Shown here piece after piece: positions 9,854-29,753 of a DNA stretch of 36,264 nt. The position numbers and the translations under genes are program-made. Under the pieces are notes generated by a model, which had not been told where the DNA came from, did no database searches, and worked only from the letters and a program-made list of their open reading frames with translations. How positions within the stretch are numbered: position 1 is the stretch's first letter; every line of letters begins with the position of its first letter. Where the stretch lies: positions 1 to 36,264 of the forward strand of contig JAMFSL010000221.1 in assembly GCA_026225275.1 (NCBI GenBank), written 5' to 3'. This DNA is from Puia dinghuensis. GTDB lineage: Bacteria > Bacteroidota > Bacteroidia > Chitinophagales > Chitinophagaceae.

Positions 9854-9912
9854 TTTTACCCTCACAATCCGATTATTTTTTCTAATTTCAGCCCCCTAAT
9901 GAACAAGTGCTG

Positions 9913-11385
9913 ATGCCGCAATCGGATATATCCTATTTAGTTGAAACCAGCCCGTCCGTACAAGCCATTCGCATGCGAAATGCGCCTTGGGTGATCCCTT
10001 TTCTTTTCTCAGCCTTCAAGACAGAAAATGTTATCTCTTTACCGGAACCGGTCCTCATCGGTCTGCTGGCCGAAGAATTGCGCCACCATACAGACGGTAT
10101 GGAAGACCTCGAAGAGGCCCGGATCGAATTCGGCGAAGATGAAGAGAGCCGCGCGCGTAAATATCTTCTTAACTGGGTGCAAAAACGCCTGCTGCAGGAT
10201 TTTCCCGACAGCGACGCCGTCACCCGCTACCAGCTGAGCGCCCACTCGGAGAAATTATTCCAATGGTTGCAAAGCCTGGAAAAACGGCAGTTCGTCGGCA
10301 CGGAAAGCCGCTTTCGTTTCCTCTTCCAGACCCTCCGTGAAATGGTGGAATATACCGAAGACGATGCGGCCAAACGTGTGGAAGAATTGAAGAACCGCAA
10401 GGCTGAAATAGACAAGGAGATCAAAAAGATCGAAATGGGCATCCAGCCCGAAATCTATACCAACGCCCAGCTGCGGGAAAGATTGGAATGGTTCACGCGG
10501 CTTAGCCATGAACTATTGAGTGACTTCCGGGAAGTGGAAGATAATTTCAAACATATTCATCGCCATATCGTCGAACAGCACACCAGGGCAGAAATCAATA
10601 AGGGCGCCATCGTAGGCTATGCTTTCGAGGCCTATGATGCACTTCGAAAGAGCGACCAGGGAAAAAGCTTCTATGCCTTCTGGGACTTCCTTATCTCACG
10701 TGCCGGGCAGGAAGAATGGCGCGAGCTGACAGACCAGCTGCTGCTGTTGCTGCAGGACAGAAATATCGGTGGCGACGGAGAATTTGTCCAGCATATCAAA
10801 TCCCTGTTGCTGCAACAGGGTCGGAGTGTCTACGAAGCCAACGATAAGATGGCGGAAAAACTGAGCCGTATCATCACCGAAAAGGAGATCGCCCGGCACC
10901 GTCGCCTTCGCCAGCAGATCGGGCAAATCAAAGAACTGGTCTTTCGGTTCATGGAAGACGAGACACCGCCCTGCGGACTGGTATTGCAGACCTCCGCCCC
11001 CATCCGGATGAATATGGAGCGTAAGCTGACGCTGACGGAAAGACAAGGCAGCGCGCCGGTCAAACAACCGGTCAATGCCCGGGAAAAAATCGAAGACATG
11101 GAGCGGTTCAGCCGCATGCTCAATACCTCTCACATAGATAAGAAAAAGCTCTGGCATAAAGTAGAACAGGTACTCGAACACAAAAAGACGGCCACTCTCC
11201 TCGAAATCATTACGGAGAAGGGCCTCGACAACGGTGTCGCTGAGGTCATCAGTTATTTCAGCTTCCTGCGGGAAAAAGCCAATCAGGTGCAGTATATGCA
11301 GGAAATTACCGAACTGATCCCGCTCGATGCCGAAAAGACCAATTATCTGGAAATACCTTATCTGCTCTTCGCCAGAAAAAACTAA
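9913..11385 (+). CDS. JetA/MksF-like kleisin subunit (DUF3375)
   Basis: This 490-residue protein (ATG 9913; a GTG two codons earlier is possible) resembles DUF3375, the JetA/MksF/MukF-like kleisin of bacterial condensins. It has an N-terminal winged-helix-like region (SPSVQAIRMRNAPWVIPFLF), then FVGTESRFRFLFQTLREMVE, a helical hairpin rich in Lys/Glu (AKRVEELKNRKAEIDKEIKK), LSHELLSDFREVEDNFKHIH, and a C-terminal segment ending YLEIPYLLFARKN. Kleisins bridge the two ATPase heads and recruit the small JetB/MksE subunit. The next gene starts three bases after the stop, so the three genes form a tight operon. The length is in the range expected for JetA. Confidence 0.85.
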   Translation: MPQSDISYLVETSPSVQAIRMRNAPWVIPFLFSAFKTENVISLPEPVLIGLLAEELRHHTDGMEDLEEARIEFGEDEESRARKYLLNWVQKRLLQDFPDSDAVTRYQLSAHSEKLFQWLQSLEKRQFVGTESRFRFLFQTLREMVEYTEDDAAKRVEELKNRKAEIDKEIKKIEMGIQPEIYTNAQLRERLEWFTRLSHELLSDFREVEDNFKHIHRHIVEQHTRAEINKGAIVGYAFEAYDALRKSDQGKSFYAFWDFLISRAGQEEWRELTDQLLLLLQDRNIGGDGEFVQHIKSLLLQQGRSVYEANDKMAEKLSRIITEKEIARHRRLRQQIGQIKELVFRFMEDETPPCGLVLQTSAPIRMNMERKLTLTERQGSAPVKQPVNAREKIEDMERFSRMLNTSHIDKKKLWHKVEQVLEHKKTATLLEIITEKGLDNGVAEVISYFSFLREKANQVQYMQEITELIPLDAEKTNYLEIPYLLFARKN

Positions 11386-11388
11386 TGC

Positions 11389-11979
11389 ATGGCCAACGAT
11401 AAAACACCTGTTTACCCGTTTACACCCGTCCTTATCCGACTACTCAAAGGGCCGGTGGAATATATCGACAAATCGGTCTGGGACCAGCTGCTGCAGTACC
11501 AGGCCGAATTGACCCGTCTGCTCCAAAACCTCGGACTGATCCTGGTGCTGGAAAAAGACGACGGTTACGCTTATCTCGAACAGGTACGGCTAGACGAAGA
11601 AGAAACCGTCATCGGTTGGGTACGGCGCTCACCTCTCGGTTACGAAGAAAGTATCCTGCTGGTCCTGCTGCGGGATATGATGGCCGAATTCGAAGTAGGA
11701 GAGGCCGGAACCCGCGAACTGATCAAACGGCGAAGAGAGATCAAGGAGTATGCAGAGCTGTTCTTTAAGGAAAACCCCAGCCGGGTAAAGTTCATCCGTG
11801 AGCTGGATCGCCTCATTGACCGGGCAGCCGAGCTGGACTTCCTGGAAAAAGTCGAATCGCACGACCTGGCGGATGAAGAAAAGTTCCGCGTTAAGAAGAT
11901 CATCAAGGCTCGCGTCAATAACGAAGCGTTGGAAAATTTTAAACAACAACTGGCAGAACATGCAGCTGGGCGTATTTAG
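11389..11979 (+). CDS. JetB/MksE-like subunit (DUF4194)
   Basis: The 196-residue protein sits between the kleisin and ATPase genes, the standard place for the JetB/MksE (MukE-like) KITE subunit. Family features are VLIRLLKGPVEYIDKSVWDQ near the N-terminus, LQNLGLILVLEKDDGYAYL, then RRSPLGYEESILLVLLRDMM, and a C-terminal winged-helix half with ELDFLEK. The protein would bind the kleisin as a dimer and help gate DNA. The ATG at 11389 is three bases after the previous stop. The last 20 bases overlap the start of the ATPase gene, implying translational coupling. Confidence 0.8.
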   Translation: MANDKTPVYPFTPVLIRLLKGPVEYIDKSVWDQLLQYQAELTRLLQNLGLILVLEKDDGYAYLEQVRLDEEETVIGWVRRSPLGYEESILLVLLRDMMAEFEVGEAGTRELIKRRREIKEYAELFFKENPSRVKFIRELDRLIDRAAELDFLEKVESHDLADEEKFRVKKIIKARVNNEALENFKQQLAEHAAGRI

Positions 11980-14900
11980 CACCGACGAGAACAAATCCGG
12001 TTTTCGATTACAGTACATGGAGGTCTTTAACTGGGGCACCTTCGACGAACACGTCTGGAAAATTATTCCGGGCGGAGAAACCTCTCTCCTCACCGGAGCC
12101 AACGGCAGTGGTAAGACGACCTTTGTCGACGCCCTCCTCACCCTGATGGTTCCCGAGAAGAAACACCGGTTCTATAACCAATCTTCCGGCAGCGAAAAGA
12201 AGGGCGACCGTACCGAAGAGACCTATGTCATGGGTGGCTATGGCGATGTCCACAGTGACAACGGACAATCCAACAAGACGCTCTATCTCAGGGAAAGCAA
12301 GGACCAGGCCTATAGCATCCTGCTGGCGAACTTCTCCAATGAAACGGATCAGTCCGTGACGCTCTTCCAGGTCCGGTGGTTCAGCGGGAACGACATGCGT
12401 CGCGTCTTCGCCATCGCACATAAGCCGCTGCACATCGAGGATGATTTCAAGCCCTTCGATCTTAGCGGGAACTGGCGCAAACGAATCGATCAGCAATACA
12501 ACAAAGGCAGCCGCAAACAAGTCGAATGGTTCGATGCCGCCAGCCGCTATGCGCAACGGCTGGTGGAGGTATTAGGCATGCAGAGCATGCAGGCGCTCAG
12601 CCTCTTTAATCAGACAATGGGCATCAAAGTGCTGGGCGATCTCAATGAGTTCATTCGCACCAATATGCTGGAACCCCGGAACATGGAGCAGGAGTTCCAG
12701 GAGCTGAAGCGGCATTTGTCCACACTGACGGATGCTCAGAGGAATATCGAAAAGACCGAAGCTCAGATCCGGCTGCTCACGCCGCTCCAACAAAATGTTC
12801 TGGCATTTAAAGCGCTCTCGGATAAAGGCCGTGAGGCCCGCAGCGAATTGACCACCGCCAGGATCTGGAAGAATTATACCAAATACCATCTTCTCGATGA
12901 AGACGTTCGTCAAAAAGAAAAAGAACTGGCATCGCTCCGCCGGGGAACAGAAGAAGCCCGGCAAAAGATAAGCGGTCTTCGGGAAGAACAACGGCAAATT
13001 CTGAACCAGCAAGAGCAAAACAAAGCCGGTCAGCGGCTGCAGCAGCTGCAAAAAGAAATCGATCAATTGGGCATTCAGGCGAAGGCGGCTGACCAGGCCC
13101 TGAAAAAGTTCGCCGAATGGTGCACCCTCCTACAGCTGGAAGAGACCCGTCCCGCAGATGAAGCGACTTACCAGAGAATCAAAAAAGAAGCCGGCCGGGC
13201 AGACAAAAAGCTGGCTACAGAAATCCGCAATAACGACGAAGATCGCTATGCGGCGCAGGACAGACAAAAAAAGACCGTACAACAAAAAGAGCTCCTCGAA
13301 GCCGAGCTCAATGTCCTGTTACAAAGCAAAAACAATATTCCTGCCCCTTTGATCCGGTTGCGCCGGGATCTCTGTCTCGAGCTGAAGCTGGAAGAGCAGG
13401 AGCTGCCCTTCGCCGGCGAGCTGATGCAGGTTCGTGCCGAAGAGCTGGACTGGCAACCTGCTCTTGAGAAACTGCTGAGACCCTTTGCCATGAGACTGCT
13501 GGTGCCGGACAAACATTATAAAAAAGTCACCCGGTACGTCAACCAGACCAACCTGAAAGCCCGATTGGTCTATAATCTGGTCAAAGACACCGCCCTCCAG
13601 CAATATGCCGATGCGGGCACCGTCTGGCACAAGATGGAGTTCCTCGAAGAACATTCCCTCTGCGGCTGGGTCAGCCAGCAACTCATCCAGCAGTTTAATT
13701 TCAGCTGTGTGGAGAATGAACGGCTGATGGAACGCTATGATAAAGCCATTACCCTGCAAGGGCTTGTCAAGAGCAGGGATCGGCACGAAAAAGACGACCG
13801 GCCGGACATCAACGACCCCGGCCGGTATGTGATGGGTTGGAACAATGAAAAAAAGAAAGCCGCCCTGCAGCTTCGCCGGTCGCTACTGCTAAATGAACAG
13901 GAACAGGCGACGGAAGCTTTGGAAAGGGCCGAACGACGAAATACCAGGCTGCAGGAGCAGGTCTTTGCCATCAGGAATATCGTCGCACACCCCGATTTCA
14001 GCAGCATCGATGTCCCGGGTATCCGCCAGGCCATTCACCATTTGGAACAACAGGCCGCCAAGCTAAGTCAGAGCAATGACCAGCTCAAAGCCTTGACGCA
14101 GCAGTTGGACGAGCTCCGGAAAAACCTGGATCTCAGTGAAAATGAAAAAGCGGAACAGGAAAGACAGGCTCACCATATCGAATTCGACCTCCGGCATAAG
14201 GAAAGTGAGCGAGAAGAGCTCAACGTCTTTGTCAAAGACCTCGAAGAGGCGGATAAAGACCAGCTGTTGCAATTTCAACAAAAGAGACAGGAAGAGCTCT
14301 CCGCCAGGACGCTTTCGCTCGAAAATATCGAGCCCCTCTTTTCCCGGCTGATGGAGACCGCGGAGGACGCGGCAAAACAATTCGAAGAGGATGCGCAAAA
14401 AGAAGGGCGCGAACTCGACCGCGCCATTACCAGGATCAAGAGTCCCTCGATGGACATCCTGCAACGCTTCACCGATTGGGCGGCGGATATCCAACAGTTG
14501 CCTGCCGAACGCGAGTTCGCCGGCGAATATCTGGAATGGCTGGAAAAGCTGCAGACGGAAAATCTGCCGAAATATAAAAAGGACTTCGAGCGGCTGCTCC
14601 ATGACACCGCCGTCATTAAAATGGGCGTGCTGAATGAAGAGCTGGAAAGCTGGGAGCGAAAGATAAAAAACAGCATTGCCAGCCTCAACCAGGCCCTGAG
14701 CGGGATCAACTTCAACAGGCTGCCCGACACCTATATCCAGCTGAGCTGCCGCCCGGTCGCAGATACTGCTATCCGGGAATTCAGGCACCACTTGCTGAAT
14801 GCCCTGCCTCAGGCGGCGGACTGGCAGCAAAGCAGCTTCGAAGACAAAGCCCGGCATTTCAACCAGCATGTACAATCGTTTATCGATACCCTTGATGAGA

Positions 14901-15355
14901 GCGAATCCTATCGCTCCCGCGTCCTCGATGTTCGCAATTGGTTCGAGTTCTGGGCCGACGAAAAATTCAGGCAGACCCACGAGCTCAAGAAGACCTATCG
15001 GCAGATGGGCCAGCTTTCCGGCGGTGAAAAAGCACAGCTGACCTATACCATCCTTTGCAGCGCCATCGCCTACCAGTTCGGCATCACCCGGGAAGGTCTC
15101 CATTCGAAAAGCTTCCGTTTCATTGCTGTGGATGAGAGTTTCAGTAACCAGGACGAGGAGAAAGCGACTTATCTCATGGAGCTGTGCAAACAACTGCATC
15201 TCCAGCTACTGGTTGTCACACCCAGCGATAAGATTCAGATCGTCGAGAATTTCATTGCCCATGTCCATCTCGTACAGCGGGTGGGTAACCGGCACAGCAT
15301 TCTCTTCAATATGACCAAAAAGGAGCTGAAGGAAAAAAGAGGCCTGCCGGTTTAA
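11960..15355 (+). CDS. JetC/MksB-like SMC ATPase
   Basis: ATG 11960 gives 1131 residues. The frame is open further upstream inside jetB, but this start puts FRLQYMEVFNWGTFDE at the N-terminus, as in MukB/JetC-type ATPases. Walker A is GANGSGKTT (46-54). Long Glu/Gln/Arg-rich coiled-coil stretches occupy about 320-450 and 700-900, around a hinge-like middle (about 530-690). The ABC signature LSGGEKAQL starts at 1019, and Walker B with the catalytic Glu is AVDESF (Asp1058-Glu1059). The protein would dimerise into a ring that extrudes or clamps DNA with the two preceding subunits. Its stop lies two bases from the convergent GH63 gene, so there is no room for a following jetD. Confidence 0.88.
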   Translation: MQLGVFSTDENKSGFRLQYMEVFNWGTFDEHVWKIIPGGETSLLTGANGSGKTTFVDALLTLMVPEKKHRFYNQSSGSEKKGDRTEETYVMGGYGDVHSDNGQSNKTLYLRESKDQAYSILLANFSNETDQSVTLFQVRWFSGNDMRRVFAIAHKPLHIEDDFKPFDLSGNWRKRIDQQYNKGSRKQVEWFDAASRYAQRLVEVLGMQSMQALSLFNQTMGIKVLGDLNEFIRTNMLEPRNMEQEFQELKRHLSTLTDAQRNIEKTEAQIRLLTPLQQNVLAFKALSDKGREARSELTTARIWKNYTKYHLLDEDVRQKEKELASLRRGTEEARQKISGLREEQRQILNQQEQNKAGQRLQQLQKEIDQLGIQAKAADQALKKFAEWCTLLQLEETRPADEATYQRIKKEAGRADKKLATEIRNNDEDRYAAQDRQKKTVQQKELLEAELNVLLQSKNNIPAPLIRLRRDLCLELKLEEQELPFAGELMQVRAEELDWQPALEKLLRPFAMRLLVPDKHYKKVTRYVNQTNLKARLVYNLVKDTALQQYADAGTVWHKMEFLEEHSLCGWVSQQLIQQFNFSCVENERLMERYDKAITLQGLVKSRDRHEKDDRPDINDPGRYVMGWNNEKKKAALQLRRSLLLNEQEQATEALERAERRNTRLQEQVFAIRNIVAHPDFSSIDVPGIRQAIHHLEQQAAKLSQSNDQLKALTQQLDELRKNLDLSENEKAEQERQAHHIEFDLRHKESEREELNVFVKDLEEADKDQLLQFQQKRQEELSARTLSLENIEPLFSRLMETAEDAAKQFEEDAQKEGRELDRAITRIKSPSMDILQRFTDWAADIQQLPAEREFAGEYLEWLEKLQTENLPKYKKDFERLLHDTAVIKMGVLNEELESWERKIKNSIASLNQALSGINFNRLPDTYIQLSCRPVADTAIREFRHHLLNALPQAADWQQSSFEDKARHFNQHVQSFIDTLDESESYRSRVLDVRNWFEFWADEKFRQTHELKKTYRQMGQLSGGEKAQLTYTILCSAIAYQFGITREGLHSKSFRFIAVDESFSNQDEEKATYLMELCKQLHLQLLVVTPSDKIQIVENFIAHVHLVQRVGNRHSILFNMTKKELKEKRGLPV

Positions 15356-23464: not shown

Positions 23465-23905
23465 ATGCGTGCTATTAACCCCAGAATACAATTCCATTTT
23501 CTCCACCCCGTCTCCCTGCAGGAAAGGGCCAGGTTGAAACAGTTCATTATCTCTCTATTCCAAAAAGAAAAGAAAAGGCTTACGGAACTGCAATACATCT
23601 TCTGTTCCGACCAACGCTTGCTGGAAATTAACCAGCAATTTCTTCAGCACGACTTTTATACGGACATTATCACCTTCCCGCTCTCCGATCCTGGTCAACC
23701 CATTAGTGGTGAAATCTACATTAGTGTCGACCGGGTTAGGGACAATGCCGCGGTTTTTGGAAGTTCCATCAAAAGGGAATTACACCGGGTCATCTTCCAC
23801 GGGGCTCTTCATTTATGCGGGTATAAGGACAAAAAACCCCGGGAAGAGAAGTTAATGAGGGAGATGGAGGATAAATACCTCGCCTTGTATGGCCGTTCCA
23901 CGTGA
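23465..23905 (+). CDS. ybeY: Endoribonuclease YbeY (rRNA maturation factor)
   Basis: The 146-residue protein has the YbeY zinc site in FHGALHLCGYKDKKPREEK (about 117-135). It also has the upstream conserved segments NQQFLQHDFYTDIITFPLSD (the T-D-V-L-S-F-P-like strand) and GEIYISVDRVRDNA. YbeY acts in 16S rRNA 3' processing and ribosome quality control. The H-x-x-x-H-x-x-G-Y-x-D arrangement is the usual Bacteroidota form, in which the third His of the proteobacterial motif is replaced. The last three codons and the stop are part of a parS-like palindrome (23894-23909). Confidence 0.93.
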   Translation: MRAINPRIQFHFLHPVSLQERARLKQFIISLFQKEKKRLTELQYIFCSDQRLLEINQQFLQHDFYTDIITFPLSDPGQPISGEIYISVDRVRDNAAVFGSSIKRELHRVIFHGALHLCGYKDKKPREEKLMREMEDKYLALYGRST

Positions 23906-23909
23906 AACA
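23894..23909. promoter_or_regulatory. parS-like palindrome 1, overlapping the ybeY stop
   Basis: CGTTCCACGTGAAACA differs from the widely conserved ParB site TGTTTCACGTGAAACA at two positions. Its core GTTCCACGTGAAAC is one base away from a perfect GTTCCACGTGGAAC palindrome. The TGA stop of ybeY (23903-23905) is inside it. ParB/Spo0J sites are usually clustered near the replication origin. Confidence 0.6.
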
Positions 23910-23941: not shown

Positions 23942-23955
23942 GTTCCCCGTGGAAC
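23942..23955. promoter_or_regulatory. parS-like palindrome 2, in the mnmG promoter region
   Basis: GTTCCCCGTGGAAC has perfect GTTCC/GGAAC arms around CCGT, one base from GTTCCACGTGGAAC. Its centre is 47 bp from that of palindrome 1. It ends three bases before the TAATTTTG box of mnmG, so a bound ParB could affect mnmG transcription. Confidence 0.5.
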
Positions 23956-25939: not shown

Positions 25940-26950
25940 TTATAAACCATATTTGGCGCTGATTTCCAACATTCTATCCATTGGTTTGCGCGCAGCAAGC
26001 ATTAAAGCCGGATCCATCAGCAGCTCCGGCTGTTCGTATTCCATACACAGGTATAATTTCTCTAATGTATTCAGCTTCATATGTGGGCAATCATTGCAAG
26101 CACAGTTATTTGTCGGCGGTGCCGGAATGAAACTCTTCTCCGGCGACGACAATTGCATCTGATGCAGTATTCCGGCCTCTGTTGCCACGATGTATTCTTT
26201 CCCGACATCCCGCTTCGTATAATTCAAGAGGGCCGTGGTGGACCCTATATAGTCTGCCAGACGTAGTACCGGTTCTTCACACTCCGGGTGCGCGATTAAT
26301 TTCGCCTGAGGGTACCGGACCTTTAAACGCGTGATTTTCTCCAGGCTAAAAATTTCATGTACCATACACGCTCCGTCCCATAATAACATATCCCGGCCGG
26401 TCTTCTTGACCAAATACGCTCCCAGATTCCTGTCAGGGGCGAAAATGATCGGTTGATCCTTTGGAATACTTTCAACGATCTTCTCGGCATTCGACGACGT
26501 GCAGATAATATCGCTCAGCGCCTTTACTTCCGCGGAACAATTGATATAAGAGATAACAAGATGATCCGGATGTTTTTCCCTGAAGGCCTTGAACAGATAG
26601 CCAGGTGCGGAATCTGCCAGCGAGCAGCCTGCCTTCAGATCAGGCAATACAACCTTCTTATCCGGATTGAGGATCTTCGCCGTCTCTGCCATGAAATGAA
26701 CACCCGCAAACACGATCAGGTCAGCTGTCGTCTTTTCCGCCTGTTGTGCCAGTCCCAGGCTATCTCCGATATAGTCCGCCACATCCTGGATATCCGCCTC
26801 CTGATAATAATGTGCCAGCACAATCGCATTTTTTTCCTTCTTCAAGCGTTCTATCTCCAGAAAGAGATCCAGCTCCGGCGAAACAGCTATATCCAAAAAC
26901 CCTCGGGAGGATAAATTTTTCGTCGCGGATGTCATGTTAATATCTGCCAT
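25940..26950 (-). CDS. nadA: Quinolinate synthase
   Basis: From ATG 26950 the protein has 336 residues; the frame runs back to a TTG at 26968, which is less likely. NadA condenses iminoaspartate with dihydroxyacetone phosphate using a [4Fe-4S] cluster. The three expected cluster cysteines appear in [19 protein letters not shown] and CACNDCPHM. Other signatures are [20 protein letters not shown] and [10 protein letters not shown] near the N-terminus and [11 protein letters not shown]. No nadB or nadC is adjacent. Its promoter must overlap the AT-rich edge of the proposed origin. Confidence 0.95.
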
Positions 26951-27423
26951 AGTATTTAATAATATCAATTATTTATAAATAAAGCTACTACTACTATCAT
27001 GGTGGATTAGTGGATAAGAATTTTCGTTCCCCTGTGGAATCATCGAAAACACCTATTTATTCACCGTATTGCACATTTAGTTAACAAGCGAGATGCCCCT
27101 TTGGATCACAGTCTTCCCTACTTTTCCACAAGTGTGGATGAAAACCGGGTCCGGAAAACTATTTTGCCGTCCTCTTGTCAATGGCTGTGGAATAACTGCG
27201 GCTTTGTACACCGACCCGATTCTCCTGTCCATCCCGCCGGGAGTTGTCTCCCAACTATACCCAGCCTGCAGGGTATCTGCAACCGGGTTTATCCACCGCC
27301 AAACAGGGTTATTCATAAGTCCTTGTTAATTATCGTTTCACGAAGATTGTTTCACAAAAAAGCCATTTGCCGGAAATCAGACCAGAAGGCACTTTAACAC
27401 CCTTTTCCACAATTTGTTCATAA
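26951..27423. other. oriC: Candidate replication origin (AT-rich segment plus DnaA-box cluster)
   Basis: No gene is visible here. The segment 26951-27000 has only 8 G/C in 50 bases, far below the rest of the window, and could be the unwinding element. It is followed by DnaA-box-like 9-mers. Perfect matches to TTWTNCACA are TTTTCCACA at 27122-27130 and 27403-27411. One-mismatch sites are TTATCCACT (27009-27017, minus), TCATCCACA (27133-27141, minus), TATTCCACA (27186-27194, minus) and TTATCCACC (27289-27297, plus). Weaker sites lie at 27067-27075, 27309-27317, 27348-27356 and 27415-27423. The pair at 27122-27141 is an inverted repeat with a 2-bp spacer. By rough estimate fewer than one such site is expected by chance. 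dnaA itself is not in the window. Confidence 0.55.
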
Positions 27424-27428
27424 CCCAA

Positions 27429-27457
27429 GGACCCCTCCAGGGGTCCGGCCGAAGGCC
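27429..27457. repeat. Two adjacent short palindromes
   Basis: GGACCCCT (27429-27436) pairs with AGGGGTCC (27439-27446) around a two-base spacer. GGCCGAAGGCC (27447-27457) follows at once as a second hairpin. Neither is followed by a T tract on the plus strand, so they are not obvious terminators. They lie just right of the last DnaA-like box. Confidence 0.55.
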
Positions 27458-27471
27458 CATCATAAGATCTT

Positions 27472-27515
27472 TTGTGCTGAAGGGTTATTTTTCCCCTAAA
27501 GACCCTTCAGCACAA
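27472..27515. repeat. Perfect 14-bp inverted repeat upstream of ppiD
   Basis: TTGTGCTGAAGGGT (27472-27485) is the exact reverse complement of ACCCTTCAGCACAA (27502-27515), separated by 16 bases. No T tract follows on either strand. It could be an operator, an RNA structure, or a boundary or terminator element of the origin region. It ends 14 bp before the candidate -7 box of ppiD. Confidence 0.7.
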
Positions 27516-27528
27516 CCATAAATTCCCC

Positions 27529-27536
27529 TATTTTTG
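27529..27536 (+). promoter_or_regulatory. Candidate -7 element for ppiD
   Basis: TATTTTTG matches TAnnTTTG perfectly and lies 54 bases upstream of the ppiD ATG at 27591. No TTTG lies at the -33 distance; that position is taken by the right arm of the 14-bp inverted repeat. Confidence 0.4.
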
Positions 27537-27590
27537 CCATCCGTTTATTAAAAATACAACCCCGAATCAACTTTATAGAGAATCAAAATT

Positions 27591-29753
27591 ATGTCAATAC
27601 TTCAAACAATAAGGGATAGAGCAGCCTGGTTAGTCTTTGGTCTTATCGCTCTGAGTCTGATCGGTTTTCTTTTGATGGATGCCTTTGTAGGCAGAAGCCG
27701 GCTTTTCGGCAACCGCTCGACGGTAGTCGGAACGATCGATGGGCAAAAGATAGAATATGATGACTTTGAACGAGAAGTCTCCAGCCAGGAAGACCGGTAC
27801 AAAGCTCAGGGCTATCCCGTTAACGATGCCATGCAGCAGAATATCAGAGATGAGGTGTGGCGCCAGATGATCGAAGACGCTATACTTAGCAAGGACTTTG
27901 CAAAGCTGGGACTCGACGTCAGCGACAAAGAGATTAATGACATGCTGGTCGGAAACGACCCGATCCCGGATGTAAAGCGAGCCTTTACAGATCCCAAAAC
28001 CGGGCTTTTCGATGCACAGGCTGCTGCTGCCCAGATCAATCAGTTAAGGTCTCTTTATAAAGCGGGACCGAAAAAGACTGCTAATGCAGACAACCGGCAG
28101 TATGAAGCGGCAAAGTCATTTTTTGAAGAATCCGTTCCGCAGATCATCAAAATGAGGTTACGGGAAAAATACACTTCCCTACTGGCTAACAGTGCCTACG
28201 TTCCCAAATGGATGATCGAGAAGATGAATGCGGACAACAGCCAGCTGGCTGCCATCTCCTACGTCAACACTCCATATTATACTGTTCCGGATAGTGCGGC
28301 GAAAATAACAGATGGAGAGATAGAAGATTATATCAATCAGCACAAGGACCAGTTCAAACAGGAAGAGAGCCGGAGCATTGCCTACATCACATTCAATGCT
28401 GCTCCCAGTTCAAGCGATAGCGACAAGCTAAAACAACAGTTGGTTGAGCTGTCTACAGAATTTGCCAAGACGAATGACCCGCAAGCCTTCCTGGCCAGGG
28501 TAGGAACAGAAGCTGCATATGGGGATACCTATTTTGGTAAATCCAGGATACAGGTGCCGAACAAAGATTCCATTTTTGCCCTCGCCAAGGGAGCGGTCTA
28601 TGGTCCATACCTCGACGGAGGAAATTTTACCATCGCCAAGCTGGTTGACGAAAAGACGATGCCCGACTCTGCTCGCGCCCGCCATATTCTTGTCGCCACA
28701 ATCGACCCTCAGACTCAGCAGCCGACCATGGATGATAGCACGGCCAAGAAAAAGATAGATAGTATCCGCAACATGATCGAAAAAGGCGGCCAGAAGTTTG
28801 ACAGCGTTGCCGCCAGGTTCTCCGATGATCCCGGCAGCAAGACAAAGGGGGGTGATCTGGGCTATTTCACAGCCGACCGCATGGTCAAGGAATTCTCCGA
28901 TTTTGCCTTCAACCATAAGGTCGGCGATAAAGGAATCGTAAAAAGCCAGTTTGGATACCATTATATAGAGGTGACCGACCAGAAAAGTTTCGAACCGGCA
29001 TATAAAGTGGCTTATCTCAGCCGTAAGATAGAGACCAGTCCGGAAACGGATCAGGCAGCCTCCGGAATGGCCAGCCAGTTCGCCGGGGAGAGCCGCGACG
29101 CGAAGGCTTTCGACGATAACGTGCAGAAGGGCAAATTGCAACGGCTCAATGCGCCGGATATTCAACCTTCCGAATTTTCCATTCCCGGTCTCGGCCCGAA
29201 TCGTCAGCTCGTCCGCTGGATCTATGATGCAGAAGTCGGCAATGTTTCGGAACCTTTTGCCATAGGAGATAAATATGTCGTAGCGCTCCTGACGGAAATC
29301 AATAAGGCGGGAACGATGTCAGCGGCGAAGGCCCGGAGTGTTGTCGAACCGATCCTTCGTAACAAGAAAAAGGCGGAACAAATCATCAAGAAGCTGGGCA
29401 GTCCGGCCTCACTCGACGCTGCAGCAACCGCCGGTGGCCAACAGATCATGCACGCGGACAGCGTACTGTTCTCTTCGCCGTATATTGCCAATGTCGGTCA
29501 GGAACCTAAGGTCATTGGCTCTGCCTTTAATAAAGACCTCGCAGGGAAACCCGCTTCTCCGCCCATCCCGGGCAATGGCGGCGTGTATGTTATCCAGGTA
29601 GAAAAGGTCAGCGCTCTGTCCAATCCGAACGCCGACCTGCAGCAACAACGCTTTGTGCAGGAACAGCAACAGCGTCAGCGCATTTCTTACGGTCTCGTGG
29701 ACGCCTTACGCAAACTGGCGACCATTGAAGATGATCGGGGTAAATTCTTCTAG
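27591..29753 (+). CDS. ppiD: PpiD-like periplasmic peptidyl-prolyl isomerase/chaperone
   Basis: The 720-residue protein is anchored by one N-terminal membrane segment (about residues 13-31, WLVFGLIALSLIGFLLMDAF) preceded by MSILQTIRDRAA, the usual PpiD opening. A SurA-N-like helical chaperone region follows (about 45-250). A parvulin domain lies near 361-460: ARARHILVA, then FDSVAARFSDDPGSKTKGGD, LGYFTADRMVKEF and FGYHYIEV. A further chaperone-like half reaches a Gln-rich C-terminus. It would fold outer-membrane and periplasmic proteins at the inner-membrane surface. It is a single-gene unit between the hairpin-bearing leader and a terminator at 29782-29818. Confidence 0.92.
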   Translation: MSILQTIRDRAAWLVFGLIALSLIGFLLMDAFVGRSRLFGNRSTVVGTIDGQKIEYDDFEREVSSQEDRYKAQGYPVNDAMQQNIRDEVWRQMIEDAILSKDFAKLGLDVSDKEINDMLVGNDPIPDVKRAFTDPKTGLFDAQAAAAQINQLRSLYKAGPKKTANADNRQYEAAKSFFEESVPQIIKMRLREKYTSLLANSAYVPKWMIEKMNADNSQLAAISYVNTPYYTVPDSAAKITDGEIEDYINQHKDQFKQEESRSIAYITFNAAPSSSDSDKLKQQLVELSTEFAKTNDPQAFLARVGTEAAYGDTYFGKSRIQVPNKDSIFALAKGAVYGPYLDGGNFTIAKLVDEKTMPDSARARHILVATIDPQTQQPTMDDSTAKKKIDSIRNMIEKGGQKFDSVAARFSDDPGSKTKGGDLGYFTADRMVKEFSDFAFNHKVGDKGIVKSQFGYHYIEVTDQKSFEPAYKVAYLSRKIETSPETDQAASGMASQFAGESRDAKAFDDNVQKGKLQRLNAPDIQPSEFSIPGLGPNRQLVRWIYDAEVGNVSEPFAIGDKYVVALLTEINKAGTMSAAKARSVVEPILRNKKKAEQIIKKLGSPASLDAAATAGGQQIMHADSVLFSSPYIANVGQEPKVIGSAFNKDLAGKPASPPIPGNGGVYVIQVEKVSALSNPNADLQQQRFVQEQQQRQRISYGLVDALRKLATIEDDRGKFF

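Follow-up and report, generated by a model that had tools for sequence, protein, structure and literature searches.

The gap between nadA and ppiD is very probably the chromosomal replication origin (oriC) of this bacterium. The window, that is, the whole stretch of 36,264 nucleotides analysed here, is contig C336 of a draft genome of 365 contigs and 6.59 Mb, and a preliminary description of it had proposed an origin at this place. That proposal is supported by the density of DnaA boxes, by AT-richness, by the nearby mnmG and by parS, whereas its argument from local GC skew fails. Stronger evidence than that given there comes from a feature absent from it, a compact unwinding module in which tandem DnaA boxes, a 12-bp spacer, four trinucleotide repeats and AT-rich DNA follow each other. 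This module is conserved among relatives and persists beside ppiD in genomes without detectable nadA, and it is joined by a clear switch in GC skew at the corresponding site of two relatives and by a lone exact parS.

The nadA/ppiD gap and its DnaA boxes

The gap extends from 26951 to 27590. Its left neighbour is nadA, encoding quinolinate synthase (25940-26950, minus strand; PF02445, E 3e-120), whose likely ATG is located at 26948-26950, so that the first bases of the region 26951-27423, previously singled out as the candidate origin, are the nadA leader. Its right neighbour encodes a ppiD-like SurA_N/rotamase protein (27591-29753, plus strand; PF13623 and PF13616). Among named records, the closest homologues of this NadA are those of Niastella, Chitinophaga, Terrimonas, Ferruginibacter, and other Chitinophagaceae, so that the host probably belongs to this family. 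The gene list agrees with the earlier remark that mnmG is transcribed toward the proposed origin. Further away, an operon for JetA-JetB-JetC, a condensin of the MksF/E/B type, occupies 9907-15355 on the plus strand, about 12 kb from the origin, and no match to JetD_C (PF09983) at E<=0.001 was found anywhere in the draft genome; the operon may encode a housekeeping condensin rather than a Wadjet defence system. The two Bacteroidetes treated in PMC10197239 are described there as being without any known condensin. At the edge of the contig, the first ORF (1-594) looks by eye like the beginning of a glycosyltransferase that runs on into an acetyltransferase-like protein, which may reflect either a fusion of genes or a join made during assembly.

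The gap contains 2, 6 and 16 DnaA boxes with no, at most one and at most two mismatches, respectively, where a first-order model built on 26951-27590 predicts 0.04, 0.63 and 5.7; the observed counts were reached by 0, 0 and 1 of 2000 random sequences. The cluster is therefore denser than chance, and it is also the window's densest 450 bp for boxes at all three stringencies (2 vs 0, 6 vs 3 and 15 vs 9 elsewhere). The preliminary estimate that fewer than one box would be expected holds for boxes with at most one mismatch (0.63), but not for looser box-like 9-mers, of which about six are expected. The two perfect TTTTCCACA boxes reported earlier are indeed present, at 27122 and 27403, as is the inverted pair (27122-27141), formed by the first of them (27122-27130, plus strand) and by TCATCCACA, with one mismatch, at 27133-27141 on the minus strand. 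To these are added a weak tandem at 27057-27075 on the plus strand (TTATTCACC at 27057 and TATTGCACA at 27067, two mismatches each), and two boxes with one mismatch, TATTCCACA (27186-27194, minus strand) and TTATCCACC (27289-27297, plus strand); the second perfect box, at 27403-27411 on the plus strand, marks the outer edge of the cluster. Across the genome, 81 sites are listed for TTTTCCACA and 55 for a reversed control pattern, and the two copies in the gap, 281 bp apart, are by eye the closest pair among those 81 listed sites.

The extreme AT-rich 50-mer of the preliminary description was recovered as well: over 50 bases, the A+T content of the window reaches its maximum, 86%, in the segment beginning at 26934. 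Within the gap, the stretch 26951-26984, with 91% A+T, lies between the trinucleotide repeats and the nadA start codon, and is the proposed DNA unwinding element adjacent to the boxes; folding of this stretch as single-stranded DNA gave no signal above shuffles.

Other elements of the gap are recorded here in their own right. Inside the box cluster, at 27332-27358, a 13-mer with GTTTCAC, resembling a parS half-site, occurs in two tandem copies 14 bp apart. Between the boxes and ppiD, strong hairpins occupy 27425-27515: one has 14-bp arms that pair perfectly (27472-27485/27502-27515), and another is an 8-bp inverted repeat at 27429-27446. Part of this segment has five incomplete copies at other places in the genome, and it is possibly a REP-like dispersed element. 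No Rfam family reaches its gathering threshold on the window, the two sub-threshold matches over the hairpin at 27472-27515 being to eukaryotic families.

The unwinding module and its conservation

Read on the minus strand toward nadA, the module consists of TTATCCACT, AATCCACC, ATGA and TAGTAGTAGTAG, followed by 34 bp at 91% A+T. Its box 1, TTATCCACT (27009-27017, minus strand), has one mismatch and lies 12 bp from the repeats, and its box 2, TAATCCACC (27001-27009, minus strand), has two. The four repeats at 26985-26996, whose minus-strand sequence is 5'-TAGTAGTAGTAG, read TAT-CAT-CAT-CAT on the plus strand and resemble DnaA-trios of the form 3'-NAT-5'. The strict module has no other copy in the window and was found in 0 of 20,000 random 640-mers, and the module pattern occurs at a single place in the whole draft genome.

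The search rule for the basal unwinding system (BUS) in PMC8287927 asks for three or more 3'-NAN-5' repeats and, no further than 16 bp from them, a DnaA box with at most two mismatches, and the present site agrees with it through box 1, the 12-bp spacer and the repeats of the loading strand. By the account given there, predicted BUS spacers peak at 10-13 bp and BUS sequences are found in 1755 of 2070 predicted origins. PMC6669920 describes DnaA as loading the repeats 3' to 5', away from the boxes. On the strand loaded in this direction, the stringent 3'-GAT-5' consensus is not matched, with no GAT among the repeats of the window. Reading the repeats on the loading strand thus weakens the match to the GAT consensus and leaves the conservation of the module intact.

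This conservation was followed through the family, where NadA is present in 134 of 147 genomes. The module was found upstream of NadA in all of the 30 best-scoring loci of these 134, the window's own included (27 by script and three, L043, L045 and L050, by eye), starting 157-187 bp upstream of nadA in five of the 30 and 60-95 bp upstream in the others. Among further loci (20 fetched, 19 scripted, one contig ending at nadA), all 18 readable ones carry it, two of which repeat genomes already counted and two more, from G047 and G087, had been chosen for a motif already shown there. A set of 80 named loci, which overlaps the unnamed one, includes 76 with sufficient upstream DNA, and 62 of these pass the strict test, against a background of five matches per 1.28 million strand-bases of other sequence; the 14 that fail show looser forms by eye, poor ones in L175, L232 and L236. 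A looser test was positive in 72 of 77 sequences, the window included, and in 69 of 4181 background blocks of 300 bp; the repeats were scored as TAG on the box strand in the strict test and on the opposite strand in this looser count.

The spacer measures 12 bp in 70 of the 72 sequences positive in the looser test, which permitted spacers of 11-13 bp only and did not impose 12 as such. From the first repeat to the fourth, the commonest forms in these 72 are GAT (34) or CAT (21), TAT (64), CAT (47) and TAT (44), where the middle A and the final T of the first three were required by the search and the identity of the first base was left free; GAT is confined to the box-proximal repeat, in 34 of the 72. 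A ppiD homologue pointing away from nadA is found in the upstream stretch at 65 of the 71 named loci with at least 3 kb of it, although in some of the 65 it is cut by the far edge of the stretch, and immediate adjacency to nadA is not implied. This near-constant spacing of the module, seen on the nadA side in most of the relatives read, is part of the evidence for oriC that is stronger than what had been offered before.

The position of the module beside nadA also raises the question of whether DnaA acts here as a transcription factor, at a promoter or leader of nadA (or of ppiD). Only some 35 bp separate the repeats from the nadA start codon, and the heptamer TAACTTT, which resembles a -7 promoter element of Bacteroidota and looks like one for nadA, is found upstream of box 1 in 18 members of an alignment of 71 sequences (the window plus 70 loci of L173-L252; shuffle mean 1.25), in 16 of them at a distance of 27-29 bp. 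However, TAACTTT is not found in the window, the module lies well beyond its usual distance from nadA in the five loci mentioned above, and regulation of nadA would not create the skew switch seen in relatives. Among 14 genomes of the family without a NadA match (13 of the 147 and one more), eight retain the module beside ppiD (G017, G134, G073, G057, G130, G256, G115 and G088), of which G017 and G115 belong to the same genus and G073, G256 and G088 have three mismatches in the first module box. Two others, G075 and G046, show no module within the 333 and 611 bp upstream of ppiD that make up all the sequence there, and in G063, G042, G095 and G092 the start of ppiD is unmatched, so their upstream DNA falls outside this count. 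The module does not serve nadA, since it persists in those eight genomes where nadA is not detectable, and we consider regulation of nadA or ppiD a highly improbable explanation of the site. A combined reading, in which the module of an origin doubles as the nadA leader, transcription of this NAD-synthesis gene passing through the DNA that DnaA has to open and coupling initiation to the supply of NAD, and in which a lineage-specific DnaA-trio (3'-NAT-5', pyrimidine-first) is read by a family-specific DnaA, is doubtful.

The limits of this distribution are found within and outside the family. In genus g32, the genome G031 has the module beside neither nadA nor ppiD, and G125, where the ppiD side only was covered, has none upstream of ppiD. 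Outside the family, the module was seen upstream of NadA in 0 of 25 loci, the same survey recovering it in four of five loci of the family (G031 being the negative one). In family f3, which belongs to another order, clusters of DnaA boxes lie upstream of nadA at L257, L258 and L261, with repeats that by eye are looser; the cluster is clear in L261 and modest in the other two (by genome, it is clear in G148 and modest in G222 and G240), and by eye the gene on the far side in L261 resembles nadB. This suggests that the address may be older than the family.

parS, GC skew and the position of dnaA

The parS-like sites that had been noted 3 kb to the left of the candidate origin are confirmed. The first, GTTCCACGTGAAAC (23895-23908), is exact to GTTNCACGTGNAAC, which we take to be the parS consensus, and the second (23942-23955) has one mismatch. 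The exact GTTNCACGTGNAAC occurs at a single place in the draft genome, the one at 23895, 3.1 kb from the module, as would be expected of a ParABS system with its parS near the origin. Compared with the consensus of PMC10197239, this site has two mismatches, the number allowed there. Among 80 loci of relatives, 0.66 Mb in total, 25 carry parS with at most one mismatch, at 51 sites altogether, vs 19 in 1.98 Mb of sampled stretches.

The preliminary description had also invoked a local skew switch. Its hand counts are exact (21 G and 35 C; 32 G and 25 C), but counts over 120 bases carry no weight, and the skew of the window is -0.040 to the left and -0.024 to the right of the site, without a change of sign. 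Because there is no switch inside the window, this argument was dropped. The skew of relatives was instead sampled in 20-kb stretches, and in four genomes of the family the orthologous site lies at a skew switch clearly in two, weakly in one and not in the other. In G114 (19 usable stretches), the best-fit origin is at 7.075 Mb, as is the site, and the terminus fits at 3.01 Mb, close to the antipode (3.17). For G106, 40 stretches place the best-fit origin at 5.568 Mb vs 5.567 for the site, with the next-best break, at 5.590, fitting nearly equally, and the terminus at 2.485 Mb (antipode 2.41). These coincidences are to be read with the sampling in mind, since breaks can fall only between sampled stretches and samples were set flanking the site. 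The weak agreement is that of G141, with an origin at 2.92 Mb from raw skew and at 2.995 Mb from four-fold sites, for a site at 2.995 Mb, and a terminus at 0.76 Mb vs an antipode at 0.23 Mb. G085 has an irregular skew, with best fits at 5.07 Mb (raw) and 0.67 Mb (four-fold) for a site at 6.04 Mb, and G148, outside the family, has no clean switch as judged from its skew values.

Clusters of DnaA boxes can have titration or regulatory roles, and the lack of a skew switch in the window would agree with a cluster of this kind (datA/DARS-like), binding DnaA without being an origin. However, a titration site can work without an unwinding module whose spacing is fixed and which adjoins AT-rich DNA, and such a site would be unexpected at the skew switch of relatives or near the sole exact parS of the genome, all of which makes this a very unlikely account of the gap.

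The gene dnaA itself is found at 4.78 Mb in G106, at base 25 in G114 and at 1.39 Mb in G141, that is, 0.7-1.6 Mb off the site in these three genomes, and on another contig in the present one. A location of oriC commonly far from dnaA is reported for Bacteroidetes in PMC4755523, and PMC10197239 places origins by parS clusters and skew, dnaA not always being their marker. Three small ORFs of about 150 aa (G114:C1:6662612-6662968, G114:C1:6743262-6743570 and G116:C1:2786795-2787127) resemble DnaA as well, but their match to its model is confined to the C-terminal part. That the true origin could lie at dnaA or elsewhere, the nadA/ppiD site being a relic of an ancestral origin, would agree with genus g32, which suggests that the module can vanish from beside nadA and ppiD. 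However, dnaA is not at the skew switch in G106 and G114, and the present genome has the module, the box cluster and parS together, with no second copy of the module pattern in the draft; we attach almost no probability to a relic. The nadA/ppiD gap is thus retained as the very probable oriC, against which stand the window without a skew switch, the skew of G085 and G148, the absence of the module from the places covered in g32 and repeats that are not 3'-GAT-5'.

Proposed mechanism and comparison with known origins

The analysis shows the boxes, the module with its conservation and its single occurrence in the draft genome, and the skew switch in relatives; from there on, how DnaA binds and opens the strand, how helicases are loaded and what each box does are inferred as follows. 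DnaA would bind to the boxes between 27001 and 27411 and, from the tandem pair at 27001-27017, would extend leftward along the plus strand, in the 3' to 5' direction, and cover the repeats (26985-26996). The stretching of this strand would then open the AT-rich DNA (26951-26984) for loading of the replicative helicases. The outer boxes (27122-27411) may raise the local supply of DnaA and time initiation, and the parS about 3 kb to the left would allow ParB to segregate the copied origins.

The mechanism would be that of known origins; the apparent novelty lies in where the origin sits, in the conservation of this address and in the pyrimidine-first repeats. Searches of PubMed Central papers found no report of an origin address at nadA/ppiD. 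Origins in this family cannot be located via dnaA, and the combination of a ppiD-nadA address with a recognisable module makes oriC callable in draft and metagenome assemblies. Such calls aid growth-rate estimates from read depth, the orientation of chromosomes and the building of oriC plasmids, and the pyrimidine-first trios offer a direct test of how much degeneracy is permissible in the DnaA-trio.

Like oriC of Escherichia coli, the present site combines a cluster of boxes with an AT-rich unwinding element at its flank and lies apart from dnaA; it differs in having trinucleotide repeats instead of 13-mers. With the unwinding region (incC) of oriC in Bacillus subtilis and its BUS, as described in PMC8287927 and PMC6669920, it shares the tandem boxes, the short spacer, the trinucleotide repeats and the AT-rich DNA, its 12-bp spacer falling inside the peak reported in PMC8287927. 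However, its loading-strand repeats are TAT and CAT rather than GAT and, contrary to the bipartite origin of B. subtilis, it forms one intergenic cluster that is not beside dnaA. In general layout it also resembles the Bacteroidetes origins predicted by Ori-Finder in PMC4755523, such as that of Prevotella intermedia, with a box cluster at a skew transition and a distant dnaA, from which, as they are described there, the present site is set apart by its unwinding module and its nadA/ppiD context.
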